Source: Nitrospinota bacterium
Lineage (GTDB): Bacteria; Tectomicrobia; Entotheonellia; J063
Reading direction: 5' to 3'
Assembly (NCBI GenBank): GCA_003696125.1
Contig: RFHZ01000784.1
Span: forward strand, 1-10,747
DNA: 10,747 nt
In this document: one piece after another, positions 2,690 to 10,747 of the stretch
Position numbering within the stretch: position 1 is the first letter of the stretch
Layout: each line of letters opens with the position of its first letter
Made by a program: the position numbers and the translations under genes
The notes under the pieces: generated by a model
What the model was told of the DNA's origin: nothing
Seen by the model: the letters and a program-made list of their open reading frames with translations, nothing else
The model's database searches: none

Positions 2690-3157
2690 TTAGGGGGAAG
2701 AGAGACGACACTGGGGACAGCGGGCCAGGTGTTGTTTTGCCTCTCGTTGGACCATGGAGACGATACCGGTGAGACCCTGGCCTTTGCCCATGGAGATGTC
2801 TTTGCCAAAGATCTGGAAGACGATGTCTACCGGGACACGGGCCACCTGGGCGATGGGAGCGCCGGAGAGGGTTTCGTCCAGGATGGTGGCCAGGGCTTTG
2901 GCCGAGATTCCTTGTGGATTCTCCACGGCGAAGTAGAACTTGAGGGTATGATCTGGCTGTTCTTCTGACCAGACAAAGGCTTCCGACTCACAGAAAGGGA
3001 CGCGGTGTTCCTCGGGGAAAGGGCGTTTGGCAATCCGTTCCGGGACTTCCTGGAAACGGTCGGCGATCTCTATCAGCATCTCTGACCGCTCCCAGCGATC
3101 GGTGATCAGGGCGAAGTCTTCCAGCAGTTGGGCCAGTTTTTCCGGGTACTCAGTCAT
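2690..3157 (-). CDS. sufE: SufE-family Fe-S cluster assembly sulfur acceptor
   Basis: A 155-residue protein with the length and pattern of SufE: an N-terminal helical stretch (LAQLLEDFALITDRWERSE, IADRF), then RVPFCESEAFVW, equivalent to the family's V-x-GC-x-S-x-VW loop. Cys56 would be the residue that takes persulfide from a SufS-type cysteine desulfurase. The middle (HTLKFYFAVENPQGISAKALATILDETLSGAP) matches the SufE core that follows the active-site loop. SufE hands sulfur to the SufBCD scaffold in the cytosol; no sufS, sufB, sufC or sufD is in the window. The tail carries an extra CPQC motif (Cys147, Cys150) that I do not recognise as part of standard SufE. The start is chosen on fit to the family; the upstream AGGAT is a weak ribosome binding site. 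The gene lies 158 bp beyond the rhodanese gene, behind two hairpins. Confidence 0.85.
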   Translation of the reverse strand: MTEYPEKLAQLLEDFALITDRWERSEMLIEIADRFQEVPERIAKRPFPEEHRVPFCESEAFVWSEEQPDHTLKFYFAVENPQGISAKALATILDETLSGAPIAQVARVPVDIVFQIFGKDISMGKGQGLTGIVSMVQREAKQHLARCPQCRLSSP

Positions 3158-3315: not shown

Positions 3316-4179
3316 CTACCGTTCGATAGGGGAGTTTACCAGGTTTCCCCACTCGGTCCAGCTCCCGTCATAGTTGCGGACCTTGGGGAAGCCGAGCAGG
3401 TTAGCCAAGACAAACCAGGTATGGCTGCTCCGTTCTCCGATCCGGCAGTAGACCACCACCTCGTCTTCTGGCTTGAGGCCCTGTTCCTGCACATAGATGG
3501 CGCGCAGCTCGTCTGCCGGTTTGAAGGTGCCGTCCTCCGGGTTGACGGCGCGACTCCAGGGGACGTTCTTGGCGCCCGGGATGTGCCCGCCGCGCAGGGC
3601 TCCTTCGTTCGGGTAGTCTTCCATGTGGAGTCGCTCTCCGGTGTATTCGGCCGGGCTGCGGACATCGACCAGAGGGAGGCCGGCCTGCACGTGCTGGAAG
3701 ACCTGGTCACGGAAGGCGCGGATCTTGCTGTCATCCCGGTCTTTGGCCTTGTACTGGGTGGGGGGATAGCTCGGGACTTCCCGGGTCAGGGGACGCCCTT
3801 CCTTTTCCCACTTCAAGCGGCCGCCGTCCATGACCTTGGCGTTGGTATGGCCGAACAACTGGAAGACCCAGTAGGCATAGCAGGCCCACCAGTTGTTCTT
3901 ATCGCCGTAGAAGACCAGGGTGGTCTCTGGGGTCACCCCGATACGGGACATGAGGGCTTCGAACTGCTCTTTGTTGATGTAGTCCCGTTTTATCGGGTCG
4001 TTCAGGTCTTGGGTCCAATCGACGTTCACCGCGCCCGGGATATGTCCGGAGGCGTAGAGGAGGGGGTCTTCGTCGGACTCGATGATCCGCACCTGGGGGT
4101 CGTGCAGATGTTCGGCCACCCAGTCGGTAGAGACGAGCACCTCTGGGTGGGCATAGCCTCGACTGGCAATATCGCTCAT
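3316..4179 (-). CDS. Thiosulfate sulfurtransferase (tandem rhodanese, CysA type)
   Basis: A 287-residue protein of the usual two-rhodanese length. The N-terminal domain (about 12-135) keeps the fold motifs [12 protein letters not shown] and [11 protein letters not shown] but has [10 protein letters not shown] where an active loop would be, so it is the inactive half. The C-terminal domain (about 155-280) has [24 protein letters not shown] and the active loop [12 protein letters not shown] with catalytic Cys245. This CRIGER loop is typical of CysA/SseA-like thiosulfate:cyanide sulfurtransferases, which move sulfane sulfur through a Cys persulfide; 3-mercaptopyruvate enzymes usually have CGSGVT. 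No export signal is visible, so it should be cytosolic. The start has GGAGGA 6 nt upstream. Its promoter and operator-like palindrome are listed separately. The physiological donor and acceptor are unknown; the downstream sufE suggests sulfur trafficking, by inference only. Confidence 0.92.
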
Positions 4180-7774: not shown

Positions 7775-8770
7775 ATGACGGCACCCATCGGGATACTCTA
7801 CGAACACCCAGAATGGTTCATCCCCCTGTTTGAGGCCCTGGATGAGCTGGGAACGCCTTACGAGCGTATCCTGGTTCATGAACACCATTTCGATCCGGCC
7901 CTCCACCCGCCCCCCTATCAGCTTGTGGTCAACCGGATGAGTCCTTCCGCCTATCTGCGCGGCCACGGCAGTGGAATTTTCTACACCGTGTCCTACCTCG
8001 CCTATCTGGAGGCCCATGGCGTGGCGGTTATCAACGGGAGTAATGCTTATCAGATCGAGATCTCTAAGGCCCGGCAACTGACCCTCTTTGAACAGGTAGG
8101 AGTCCGCTATCCCCGGGCACGCGTGATCAACCATCCTGCACAAGCCCTCCTTGCGGCTTCCGGTCTCCGCTATCCCCTGATTATCAAGCCCAACATCGGG
8201 GGGAGTGGAGCCAGGATCCAGCGCTTCGACACCCCAGAAGCCTTGCAGGAAGCGGCAACAGCAGGGAAAATCGACCTGGGTATCGATCAGACCGCCCTGG
8301 TGCAGGAATACCTCCCGGCCCGAGAGGGGTGTATCGTACGGGTAGAGGTACTCGATCATGCCTTCCTCTATGCGATCAAGGTCTATCCCAATCCGGATAG
8401 CGGGTTTAATCTCTGTCCGGCCGATATCTGCCAGGTCGGTACCACACCGGCCATGCCGACTGGTGCAAGTGATAACATCGTTGCCAATTACCTGGCCCAT
8501 CCCACCGAAAAACCCGGGTTGCGTATCGAGCCTTATACGCCCCCACCTGCGGTCATCGACCAGGTGTTAGCCCTTGCCCGTCAGGCGCATCTCGATGTGG
8601 GAGGGATCGAGTATCTGGTTAACGATCAGGATGGGGAACCCTACTTCTACGATGTGAATGCACTCTCCAACTTCGTTACTGCTGCCGAGCAGATCGTCGG
8701 GTTTAACCCGTACGCCCGTCTTGCCGCTTACATCACCCGGCGGGCCAAACTGGCCGGTGCCGCCGTATAG
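7775..8770 (+). CDS. ATP-grasp (RimK/GshB-like) carboxylate-amine ligase, substrate unknown
   Basis: A 331-residue protein with an excellent start (AAGGAGG before ATG). The N-terminal pre-ATP-grasp region (about 1-95) includes YQLVVNRMSPSAYLRGHG and AVINGSNAYQIEISK. The ATP-grasp fold follows: Lys98, the glycine-rich nucleotide loop PLIIKPNIGGSGAR (Lys138 and 142-145), the hinge strand ALVQEYL (Glu177), and the metal-binding end GGIEYL and FYDVNALSNF (Asp293, Asn295). Enzymes of this fold activate a carboxylate as acyl phosphate and join it to an amine or thiol. The RimK/LysX/glutathione synthetase branch is the closest by appearance, but I cannot name the substrate. Its tight linkage to a CxxC AhpD-like protein hints at a small thiol or peptide product; that is speculation. 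A hairpin follows its stop. Confidence 0.8.
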   Translation: MTAPIGILYEHPEWFIPLFEALDELGTPYERILVHEHHFDPALHPPPYQLVVNRMSPSAYLRGHGSGIFYTVSYLAYLEAHGVAVINGSNAYQIEISKARQLTLFEQVGVRYPRARVINHPAQALLAASGLRYPLIIKPNIGGSGARIQRFDTPEALQEAATAGKIDLGIDQTALVQEYLPAREGCIVRVEVLDHAFLYAIKVYPNPDSGFNLCPADICQVGTTPAMPTGASDNIVANYLAHPTEKPGLRIEPYTPPPAVIDQVLALARQAHLDVGGIEYLVNDQDGEPYFYDVNALSNFVTAAEQIVGFNPYARLAAYITRRAKLAGAAV

Positions 8771-8829: not shown

Positions 8830-9759
8830 TCAATCCCAGAGATGGGTGCTGAAGTACCGCTCTCCCGTATCACAGAGGATGGTGACGATCTTCCCCTTGC
8901 GGATGCGACGGGCAATCTCCAGTGCACCGCGTATATATGCTCCAGAGGATTGTCCGACAAAGAGTCCCTGTCTGGCCAAGAGGGTGCACATCTCGTACGC
9001 CTCTTCCACCGTGACCGGGATCTTCTGGTCGATGATGGTCTCGTCCAAAATCTCCGGGACAATATCCTCGGGCTTGCCCAGGGGTTTGAGTCCCTCGATA
9101 CCGGGAAACTCGTCCGGGATAATTCCCCAGACTTCGATCTTGGGGTTATATTCCTTGAGACGACGACCGATACCGGTAATCGTCCCCCCGGTACCGATTC
9201 CGGCAACAAAGTGGGTCACCTCACCCCCGGTTTGCCGGAGAATCTCCTCACCGGTGGTATCGTAATGGGCCCGCCAGTTGTAGTCGTTCTTATACTGATT
9301 GCACCAGAAATAGCGTTCCGGATTCCGCATATACCGCCGTCGTACCTCACGCAGGGCCTCATCATATCCGAGCAGCGGATCGGTGAGAACGAGGCGTGCC
9401 CCATGGGCGATCATCCGCTTGCGTCTCTCGGCACTGGCATTTCCCGGTACCACCAACTCCACCTGGTAGCCGAGGATTCCCCCGATCATGGCATAGGCGA
9501 TCCCGGCGTTGCCCGAGGTCGAATCGAGGATGGTCTTATCCGGTGTCAATTCTCCTGAGCGGATCGCCTCGATGAGCATGCGCAGCACCGGTCGATCCTT
9601 GATCGAGCCACCAGGATTGAGAAATTCTGCCTTGGCATAGATCTCGACTTCCGGGAACTCCTGGGAGAAGAGGTCGATTTTTACTAAAGGTGTGTTCCCG
9701 ATAAGTTGCAAAAGCGGATAGCGAGCGACTATCTGCTGGAACGTTTCCCTCATGGTCAT
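8830..9759 (-). CDS. Cysteine synthase (PLP-dependent, CysK/CysM family)
   Basis: A 309-residue fold-type II PLP enzyme. It shows the family landmarks in order: LIGNTPLVKI (19-28), the PLP lysine Lys54 in NPGGSIKDRP, the substrate-binding loop STSGNAG (80-86), the PLP phosphate loop GIGTGGT (187-193) and GQSSGA near the C-terminus. It makes L-cysteine from an activated serine (O-acetylserine or O-phosphoserine) and sulfide or another sulfur donor. The sequence alone does not settle which. The length leaves no room for regulatory CBS domains, so a full cystathionine beta-synthase is unlikely, although the core resembles that branch as well. The ATG at 9759 is 8 nt after AAGGAG; a second ATG two codons on is possible. 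A terminator stands about 40 nt upstream in a roughly 350-nt leader, pointing to transcription attenuation. Confidence 0.92.
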   Translation of the reverse strand: MTMRETFQQIVARYPLLQLIGNTPLVKIDLFSQEFPEVEIYAKAEFLNPGGSIKDRPVLRMLIEAIRSGELTPDKTILDSTSGNAGIAYAMIGGILGYQVELVVPGNASAERRKRMIAHGARLVLTDPLLGYDEALREVRRRYMRNPERYFWCNQYKNDYNWRAHYDTTGEEILRQTGGEVTHFVAGIGTGGTITGIGRRLKEYNPKIEVWGIIPDEFPGIEGLKPLGKPEDIVPEILDETIIDQKIPVTVEEAYEMCTLLARQGLFVGQSSGAYIRGALEIARRIRKGKIVTILCDTGERYFSTHLWD

Positions 9760-9798: not shown

Positions 9799-9859
9799 AA
9801 AAAAAATCCCCCTCTCCCAGCAACCCTGCCCTTCCAGGAGGAGCGCTCGAGAGAGGGGG
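9799..9859 (-). terminator. Attenuator terminator (T2) just before cysteine synthase
   Basis: On the minus strand CCCCCTCTC (9859-9851, arm D) pairs exactly with GAGAGGGGG (9816-9808, arm E), followed by ATTTTTTTT. The 34-nt loop can hold an inner CCTG/CAGG hairpin. Its position between a strong promoter and the gene, about 40 nt from the start codon, means it must be bypassed for expression. Confidence 0.7.
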
Positions 9860-9880
9860 AAATAAAAAACCCCCTCTCTC
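9849..9880 (-). promoter_or_regulatory. Antiterminator hairpin (arms C and D)
   Basis: GAGAGAGGGGG (minus, 9880-9870, arm C) pairs perfectly over 11 bp with CCCCCTCTCTC (9859-9849, arm D) around an A/U-only 10-nt loop. Arm D is also the 5' arm of T2, so this hairpin and T2 exclude each other. Arm C is also the 3' arm of the upstream T1 hairpin. Confidence 0.6.
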
Positions 9881-9922
9881 AGAGACAGCCCCCTGGCAGG
9901 GGTGTTACTCGAGATGCGGGGG
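9864..9922 (-). terminator. Upstream terminator-like hairpin (T1)
   Basis: On the minus strand CCCCC and TCTC within 9922-9911 (arm B) pair with GAGA and GGGGG of 9880-9870 (arm C), with a small internal bulge, followed by TTTTTTA. The loop contains CCCCT-GCC-AGGGG, a further small hairpin. It is weaker than T2 and competes with the antiterminator for arm C. Confidence 0.4.
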
Positions 9923-9995
9923 TCACTTGCTCGCGACGTCGGCGAAGATAACTCGAAATTAGCGTGCCGTCCGGGCGGGCGTCAGTAACCCCCGC
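9916..9995 (-). promoter_or_regulatory. Long-range leader stem (arms A and B)
   Basis: GCGGGGGTTACT (minus, 9995-9984, arm A) pairs over 12 bp with AGTGACCCCCGC (9927-9916, arm B), with a single G-U pair and 56 nt between. Arm B overlaps the 5' arm of T1, so formation of this stem blocks T1. Arm A lies inside the candidate leader ORF, a few codons after its Cys codons. Confidence 0.55.
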
Positions 9996-10084
9996 CTCAG
10001 ACAGATGCACCGGATCGGTTGTATGCTAGACATCTGCTTACCCAGGCTGTATGAAGATAAAGATTCCTCTCTAAGAGATACCAT
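9959..10084 (-). CDS. Candidate 41-codon leader peptide with Cys codons
   Basis: An ATG at 10084, the first on the predicted transcript and about 26 nt from its start, opens a 41-codon frame closed by TAA at 9959. Codons 26-28 read TGC-ATC-TGT (Cys-Ile-Cys), in the context IRCICLRRGLLTPARTAR. An internal ATG (codon 18, at 10033) would give a 24-residue version. Neither has a clear ribosome binding site, which is the main doubt. Support comes from position: it lies between a near-perfect promoter and an attenuator for cysteine synthase, and its Cys codons stand 8-14 nt before arm A. Cys-containing short upstream frames controlling sulfur genes are known in mycobacteria. The peptide itself is probably not functional; its translation would be. 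Confidence 0.45.
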   Translation of the reverse strand: MVSLREESLSSYSLGKQMSSIQPIRCICLRRGLLTPARTAR

Positions 10085-10116: not shown

Positions 10117-10144
10117 ATTATACTGTTTCTCTCGTTCTTGTCAA
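10117..10144 (-). promoter_or_regulatory. Consensus sigma-A promoter of the cysteine synthase leader
   Basis: The minus strand has a perfect TTGACA (10144-10139), 16 bp, and a perfect TATAAT (10122-10117). The predicted start near 10110 gives about 350 nt of leader before the cysteine synthase ATG. A promoter this strong in front of a terminator fits control by attenuation. Confidence 0.8.
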
Positions 10145-10188: not shown

Positions 10189-10217
10189 TTGACACCCGCT
10201 TTCCCGCCACGTATACT
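10189..10217 (+). promoter_or_regulatory. Near-consensus sigma-A promoter of the LivG-type operon
   Basis: TTGACA (10189-10194) is followed after exactly 17 bp by TATACT (10212-10217). The start site is expected near 10224, about 45 nt before the GTG start. Its -35 is 44 bp from the -35 of the divergent cysteine synthase promoter, leaving 10145-10188 as a shared upstream region with no clear motif. Confidence 0.75.
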
Positions 10218-10268
10218 ACTTCAGGAGTTCTTCACAGGGATAGACAGAAGGGAAGGAGGAAGGGAAGG

Positions 10269-10747
10269 GTGTCCTTACTGGAGACACGAGGACTGGTCAA
10301 GGATTTTGGTGGTCTGCGGGCGGTCAACGACATCTCTCTCCGGGTTGAGGAAGGAGAGATCGTGGGGATCATCGGTCCCAACGGCTCCGGGAAAACGACC
10401 TTTATCAACCTGATCATGGGCTTCCACCGGCCGGATGCGGGACAGGTCTTCTTCCAGGGAAGAGAGATTACCGGTCTCCCCCCGGAAGCCATTGCCCAGC
10501 GTGGGATCAGCAAGACGTTCCAGATCAGCCGTCCCTTTGCCGAGCTGTCGGTGTTACAGAACATGCTGGTGGCCGGCCTGCGGCTTCCCAAAGAGAGGCG
10601 CGAGGAGCGGGCCCGGACCCTCCTGCAGCTCGTCGATCTCCTCCCCCTCCAGCACCAGAAGGCAGGGGAACTCTCCTTTGGCCAGACCAAGCTCCTCGAG
10701 TTTGCCCGCCTCCTGATGCTCGATCCCCACCTGCTCCTGCTCGACGA
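10269..10747 (+). CDS. LivG-type branched-chain amino acid ABC transporter ATPase, 3' end outside window
   Basis: A frame of 159 codons plus 2 bases, open to the right edge. The GTG start is preceded by AAGGAGG and gives MSLLETRGLVKDFGGLRAVNDISLRV, a standard ABC opening (quoted in parts: MSLLETRGL, KDFGGLRAV). Walker A GPNGSGKTT is at 36-44, the Q-loop Gln85 is in ISKTFQISRPF, the signature LSFGQ is at 135-139 and Walker B LLLLD is at 155-159, where the window ends. The KTFQISRPF and LSFGQ-TKLLEFARLL wording is that of the LivG/HAAT subfamily, which powers uptake of branched-chain amino acids, or in some members urea or other small polar solutes, with LivF, LivH, LivM and a binding protein. 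Those genes should lie downstream. Being first in the operon right behind a promoter is consistent with this. About 90 residues are missing. Confidence 0.88.
   Translation, partial: MSLLETRGLVKDFGGLRAVNDISLRVEEGEIVGIIGPNGSGKTTFINLIMGFHRPDAGQVFFQGREITGLPPEAIAQRGISKTFQISRPFAELSVLQNMLVAGLRLPKERREERARTLLQLVDLLPLQHQKAGELSFGQTKLLEFARLLMLDPHLLLLD

Follow-up and report, generated by a model that had tools for sequence, protein, structure and literature searches.

Leader-peptide attenuators are textbook regulators for Trp, His, Leu and other amino acids. The trp/his/leu-type attenuators, which occur in Proteobacteria and Actinobacteria, carry codons of the regulated amino acid in the leader peptide, have one arm in common between antiterminator and terminator, and contain a hairpin that blocks the antiterminator if the leader is not translated. 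For cysteine such control is rarely documented, and the descriptions that we found were limited to uORFs of mycobacteria, which have no terminator hairpins, and to a single predicted motif before cysS. In Actinobacteria, cys leader peptides were predicted, without terminators, by Seliverstov et al. (2005; PMC1262725). The mycobacterial Cys-rich uORFs were described as potentially the first case of cysteine-directed attenuation in bacteria (Shell et al. 2015; PMC4633059), and the passages of PMC7790235 and PMC13236596 that cite Canestrari et al. (2020) speak of translation attenuation in M. smegmatis. These leaderless polycysteine uORFs (cysA2 and others) put a Cys-coding leader ORF before cysteine/sulfur genes. 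A screen from 2021 (PMC8632094) predicted the motif uORFC-8-2 before cysS in the Rhodobacterales, with Cys codons and a terminator: its parts are a uORF in which two Cys codons are conserved, an intrinsic terminator and two stems, and ribosome-mediated attenuation by charged tRNA-Cys was proposed for it. The T-box (RF00230), found in some cases before Firmicutes cysteine genes, also senses tRNA charging 5' of amino-acid genes and does so with a tRNA-binding fold.

We analysed a window (the whole stretch of DNA, 10,747 nucleotides) in which a candidate attenuator precedes a cysteine synthase-like gene (Table 1). This general reading, proposed in a preliminary description, is supported by the arms, by their position and by the recurrence of A, B and C in a second copy (copy 2) in the same genome, and we think that these elements most likely make up a transcription attenuator that works through the ribosome, responds to charged tRNA-Cys and follows trp-type logic. 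Sequence and computation show the leader ORF, the arms, the recurrence at a second sulfur-linked locus and the opening of the terminator, in folding models, specifically at the Cys codons; translation of the peptide, stalling of the ribosome, actual termination and a response to cysteine are inferred. This putative example has those structural hallmarks of leader-peptide attenuation that sequence alone can reveal. It differs from the trp/his/leu type in its cysteine specificity, in that arm A supplies the 5' strand to H1 as well as to A:B, and in that one gating arm may serve two successive stops. The mycobacterial polycysteine leaders have no conserved terminator hairpins, whereas the window element has U-tract terminators and an antiterminator. 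From uORFC-8-2, with its cysteinyl-tRNA synthetase target, its alphaproteobacterial hosts and its tandem adjacent Cys codons (usually positions 14-15), the window element differs by a Cys-x-Cys pattern, a biosynthetic gene, an unrelated lineage and a second stop. Gene context sets the two apart: membership in uORFC-8-2 implies a position upstream of cysS, and downstream of our copies there are instead a cysteine synthase-like gene (window) and TrpD2-like/CbiX genes (copy 2). Compared with the T-box, the window has a leader ORF and no Rfam T-box match at E-values up to 1. The same scan (Rfam 15, E up to 1) yielded no riboswitch and no convincing bacterial cis-regulatory match; the matches that it did return (microRNA families, IRES, snoRNA, anti-hemB) were implausible, and all of them were under their gathering scores.

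Table 1. Features of the putative attenuator and its surroundings, in window positions
Feature	Position	Strand	Remarks
Promoter-like site TTGACA-16-TATAAT	10117-10144	minus	12/12 against the sigma-70-type consensus; consensus match only
Leader peptide ORF MSSIQPIRCICLRRGLLTPARTAR, then stop	9959-10033	minus	Putative sensor; sequence and translation; counterpart in copy 2
Hairpin H1 GUCUGAGGCGGG / CCCGCCCGGAC	9969-10002	minus	Predicted to tie up arm A without a ribosome on the Cys codons
Arm A GCGGGGGUUACU	9984-9995	minus	5' strand of the antiterminator A:B
Arm B AGUGACCCCCGCAUCUC	9911-9927	minus	Part of A:B, of the terminator T1 (B:C) and of B:E, the alternative stem of T2
Arm C GAGAGAGGGGG	9870-9880	minus	3' strand of terminator T1
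U tract of T1 UUUUUUAUUU	9860-9869	minus	Sequence; kept in copy 2
Arm D CCCCCUCUCUC	9849-9859	minus	Partner is C (hairpin nested in T2) or E
Arm E, with GAGAGGGGG at 9808-9816	9808-9818	minus	3' strand of T2; partner is B (ensemble preference) or D
A + U8 tract of T2	9799-9807	minus	Sequence
Presumed target gene, for a 309-aa PLP enzyme of the cysteine synthase family	8830-9759	minus	Pfam PALP, 2.2e-68

The arms sit between the promoter match (10144-10117) and the cysteine synthase-like gene (9759-8830), transcription is predicted to start at ~10110, and the leader folds more stably than its shuffled versions (z -2.9). The ATG of the gene is preceded by the Shine-Dalgarno sequence AAGGAG, the best NCBIfam models for its 309-aa product are cysM/cysKM (1e-94, under the curated cut-offs), and a cysteine synthase is a fitting target for a cysteine signal. 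The same strand also encodes a SufE-like protein (2690-3157, minus) and a two-domain rhodanese/3-mercaptopyruvate sulfurtransferase-like protein (3316-4179, minus), so that sulfur-handling genes are clustered in the contig of the window; a promoter-like site (TTGACA-17-TATCAT) precedes the rhodanese-like gene. The cysteine synthase gene is adjoined by a convergent ATP-grasp (RimK-like) gene (7775-8770, plus). On the other side there is a divergent promoter-like site (TTGACA-17-TATACT; 10189-10217, plus), and a plus-strand gene for an ABC transporter ATPase domain lies within 10189-10745 and runs past the window end.

Between the promoter and the terminator we found a short ORF with codons for the pathway amino acid, which had not been part of the attenuator in the preliminary description. 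Its two Cys codons (TGC, 10009-10007; TGT, 10003-10001) form a Cys-x-Cys pattern, the second codon ending right before arm A; an ORF carrying a Cys pair anywhere in such a leader was obtained in 4.7% of the shuffles. The peptide of copy 2 (MLRGWCTCPGRGLLAPARTAR, then stop) retains Cys-x-Cys. The two start regions differ, and from there on the in-frame layout is common to both copies: Cys-x-Cys, three residues, RGLLxPARTAR and the stop follow each other in the same frame and without indels. Cys, Leu and Ala codons differ synonymously between the copies and the stop is TAA in one and TGA in the other. Since the few substitutions between the two ORFs have no strong third-position bias and neither copy has a clear Shine-Dalgarno sequence before the leader ATG, we regard translation of the leader as likely rather than established.

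The five arms that had been reported on the minus strand were all found, pairing as described, with one adjustment: arm E truly starts at 9818 (9816 in the earlier version), which brings its pairs with D to 11. The antiterminator A:B, claimed at 12 bp, indeed has 12 bp with one G-U (~-27.7 kcal/mol), and it excludes T1 because arm B is common to both. The T1 stem B:C (~-22.2 kcal/mol) is followed by a U6 run 3' of C; its helix is imperfect in the window (5 bp, a bulge, then at least 4 bp), or has one G.A mismatch in the register used for the comparison with copy 2. C:D does form a perfect helix of 11 bp (~-26.9 kcal/mol), and D:E (11 bp with one G-U, ~-28.2 kcal/mol) is likewise possible, with AU8 3' of E. 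To these we add H1, which joins the inner half of arm A to a downstream strand (-23.1 kcal/mol in the window, -25.4 in copy 2); H1, as a third conserved alternative, and the Cys-x-Cys leader peptide, as the sensor, are what the present analysis contributes to the earlier reading. The strength of the T1 stem was reached in 7 out of 300 dinucleotide shuffles, that of T2 in 26 and both together in none of the 300, and a partner 5' of B with the quality of A:B appeared in 15 out of 1000 shuffles.

We then refolded the RNA for each codon of the ORF after removing all sequence upstream of the ribosome's leading edge, using equilibrium folding in place of co-transcriptional folding. The pairing probability of the base of the terminator was 0.81-0.99 (window) and 0.84-1.00 (copy 2) at all positions save the Cys-x-Cys codons and the preceding Arg. 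Assuming a footprint of 12-14 nt, across which the opening codon moves by one, the minimum in the window lay at the Ile that separates the two Cys codons (0.09-0.13) or at the first Cys (0.01), and that in copy 2 at the separating Thr (0.15) or at the first Cys (0.00-0.01); sampling the profile every 3 nt gave a window minimum of 0.13. Folding at 25-60 C preserved the dip in the window, which was shallower at 60 C. In the naked RNA, H1 formed and T1 was on, and the terminator was also on with the ribosome past arm A, in line with the original proposal that a ribosome over A favours T1. In both copies, thus, a modelled stall at the regulatory Cys codons frees the antiterminator, and does so specifically. 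A full switch, defined as a terminator that is strong both without any ribosome and once the ribosome has passed, and open in between, occurred with at least this quality in 8-10 out of 1500 shuffled leaders, where neither coincidence with Cys codons nor recurrence was required. All these shuffle frequencies weigh less than the recurrence of arms A, B and C, and of the peptide, in copy 2.

The probable course of events is as follows. RNA polymerase would begin at ~10110 and a ribosome would translate the leader peptide (10033-9959). A shortage of charged tRNA-Cys would make the ribosome stall on Cys-x-Cys, covering the 5' strand of H1 and leaving arm A free; the free A would pair with B, no terminator stem could then be formed from B, and the polymerase would continue into the gene for cysteine synthase. 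With ample cysteine, the ribosome would move over A to the stop codon and leave B free, and in the case of no translation H1 would hold A, with the same outcome for B. The free B would pair with C, next to the U6 run, and terminate transcription at T1, and any polymerase that gets past T1 would run into a second stop in front of AU8, for the most part made up of B:E around a nested C:D.

It is in this second stop that our analysis departs from the preliminary description. Of the five-arm attenuator with two stops, A:B, T1 and the existence of a second stop stand, and the antiterminator role of C:D and the part of D:E as the main stem of T2 do not. C:D, which had been supposed to block T2, is formed in every state of the ensemble once D is made, and the stem that abuts AU8 at equilibrium is B:E with C:D nested within it (-76.7 kcal/mol, against -74.6 with D:E enforced), although kinetic trapping in D:E is possible. 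The AU8-abutting stem thus pairs through B and not D, with a probability of 0.84-0.99 in the non-stalled states and of 0.01-0.14 only around the Cys codons, and the probability of B:E falls only when A:B forms; because of this pairing and its opening around the Cys codons, arm B would gate both stops. Arms C (9870-9880) and E (9808-9818) of the minus strand are near-copies of each other, GAGAGGGGG and then a U tract, and the second stop looks, from this likeness, as if it were born by local duplication of the first.

When the leader was searched against the DNA of its own genome, one other match was obtained, on another contig (C505, locus L082; E 1.7e-11), with 75% identity across window positions 10011-9912. 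Downstream of this copy there are genes for a TrpD2-like protein (Glycos_transf_3) and a member of the CbiX sirohydrochlorin-chelatase family. The blocks conserved between the copies are CTGTCYGRGGCGGGGGTTRCT..CGCCCGCCCGGACGGCWCGCTRATTT, then ACCCCCGCATCT (arm B) and then GGGGGTTTTTTATT (arm C), the latter two being identical in copy 2; the ~45 nt between A and B, which A:B would loop out, are poorly conserved. Both copies have 14 nt from the start of the first Cys codon to arm A, and in both the terminator B:C with its U6 run is present. The antiterminator A:B, which shares B with T1, has 12 bp in the window and 14 bp in copy 2, with three positions that vary one-sidedly and retain the pairing, and in H1 a U-G pair becomes C-G, so that every variable pair of A:B and H1 still pairs across both copies. 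Covariation is nevertheless thin because there are only two copies, which are paralogous, and the pair changes are one-sided. Arms D and E and the second U tract are present in the window copy only and absent from copy 2, and the five-arm form is therefore specific to the window locus; in the one homologous leader that was found, A:B and B:C are thus kept and C:D and D:E are not.

CbiX presumably serves sirohydrochlorin and hence siroheme supply, and since assimilatory sulfite reductase uses siroheme as its cofactor, both copies are plausibly tied to sulfur assimilation. The source MAG has a contamination of ~8%; the homologous element that is common to both contigs (C176, which holds the window, and C505) suggests that they belong together despite this. 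The genome has cysH-like (PAPS_reduct) and sulfite/nitrite-reductase-like genes of its own, adjacent to each other (L136, G000:C122, 2-3086), and a possible third leader before cysH is unreadable because the contig starts at the cysH start. ATP sulfurylase had no match in the own genome.

We searched 386 genomes (the own genome and 385 others, 4 of them from the same class) with a covariance model, R1, for which the two copies were the input, and only the two copies of the own genome matched; 22 further genomes, a set without a positive control, contained none. Exact matches to a degenerate pattern (Cys-x-Cys...CGGGGGTT) in the own genome were confined to the two copies, and the conserved core pattern was absent from viral contigs. 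No matching leader element was found among 80 related cysteine synthase loci, and the same-class cysteine synthase orthologues (62-65% identity) were without the element. Weak covariance-model matches in same-class genomes (E 0.02-0.4) had, on inspection, neither the ORF nor the U tract, and short Cys-bearing ORFs and T runs in Poribacteria were located in an upstream conserved coding-like region instead of a leader. The apparent rarity is partly a matter of sampling, because the class is thinly sampled and the family of the window is represented by one genome.

Could the element work without translation? A metabolite riboswitch of an undescribed class, in which a sulfur metabolite chooses between H1 with the terminator and A:B, would agree with a conserved block and mutually exclusive helices at two sulfur-linked loci. 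We consider it quite improbable: the conservation coincides with the ORF and the complementary arms and ends just past the stop codon, the ~45 nt A-B interval in which a binding pocket would be expected is the poorly conserved part, the Cys codons and their spacing to A are retained, and Rfam gave no match. A constitutive tandem terminator or insulator, with T1 and T2 cutting the read-through from a strong promoter, no response to cysteine and a fortuitous ORF, seems to us just as improbable; in its favour, two good U-tract terminators separate the promoter from the gene and the ORF is without a Shine-Dalgarno sequence, but it leaves the conserved A:B and H1 and the Cys-x-Cys ORF with its spacing in copy 2 unexplained.

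The conservation of the peptide's C-terminus up to the stop, past the 3' arm of H1, could in turn point to a nascent-chain arrest peptide, in which RGLLxPARTAR would stall the ribosome on another signal (e.g. an antibiotic or a general slow-down of translation) and the Cys codons would be secondary. The RNA arms account for the first part of this block, however, and the gene context points to sulfur; moreover, arrest at RGLLxPARTAR would not activate the gene, because a ribosome there covers A and the terminator stays on. This makes such an arrest peptide very hard to credit, and an attenuator that reads charged tRNA-Cys is the reading that we retain.

Only tentatively do we go further and propose a cysteine-biosynthesis attenuator in which arm B controls B:C and then B:E (with C:D nested), belonging to a small regulon that, in a deep uncultured lineage, would have two or more members linked to sulfur. 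The logic itself is that of the known trp/his-type attenuation; what is unusual here is the specificity and target, and possibly the variation in which one gate serves two stops. The compact two-stop design is amenable to a laboratory transcription-translation system. A full cysteine attenuator whose paralogue stands in front of a likely siroheme gene suggests a renewed origin of this kind of control in a distant lineage, where it could couple the sulfur pathway to the supply of cysteine.
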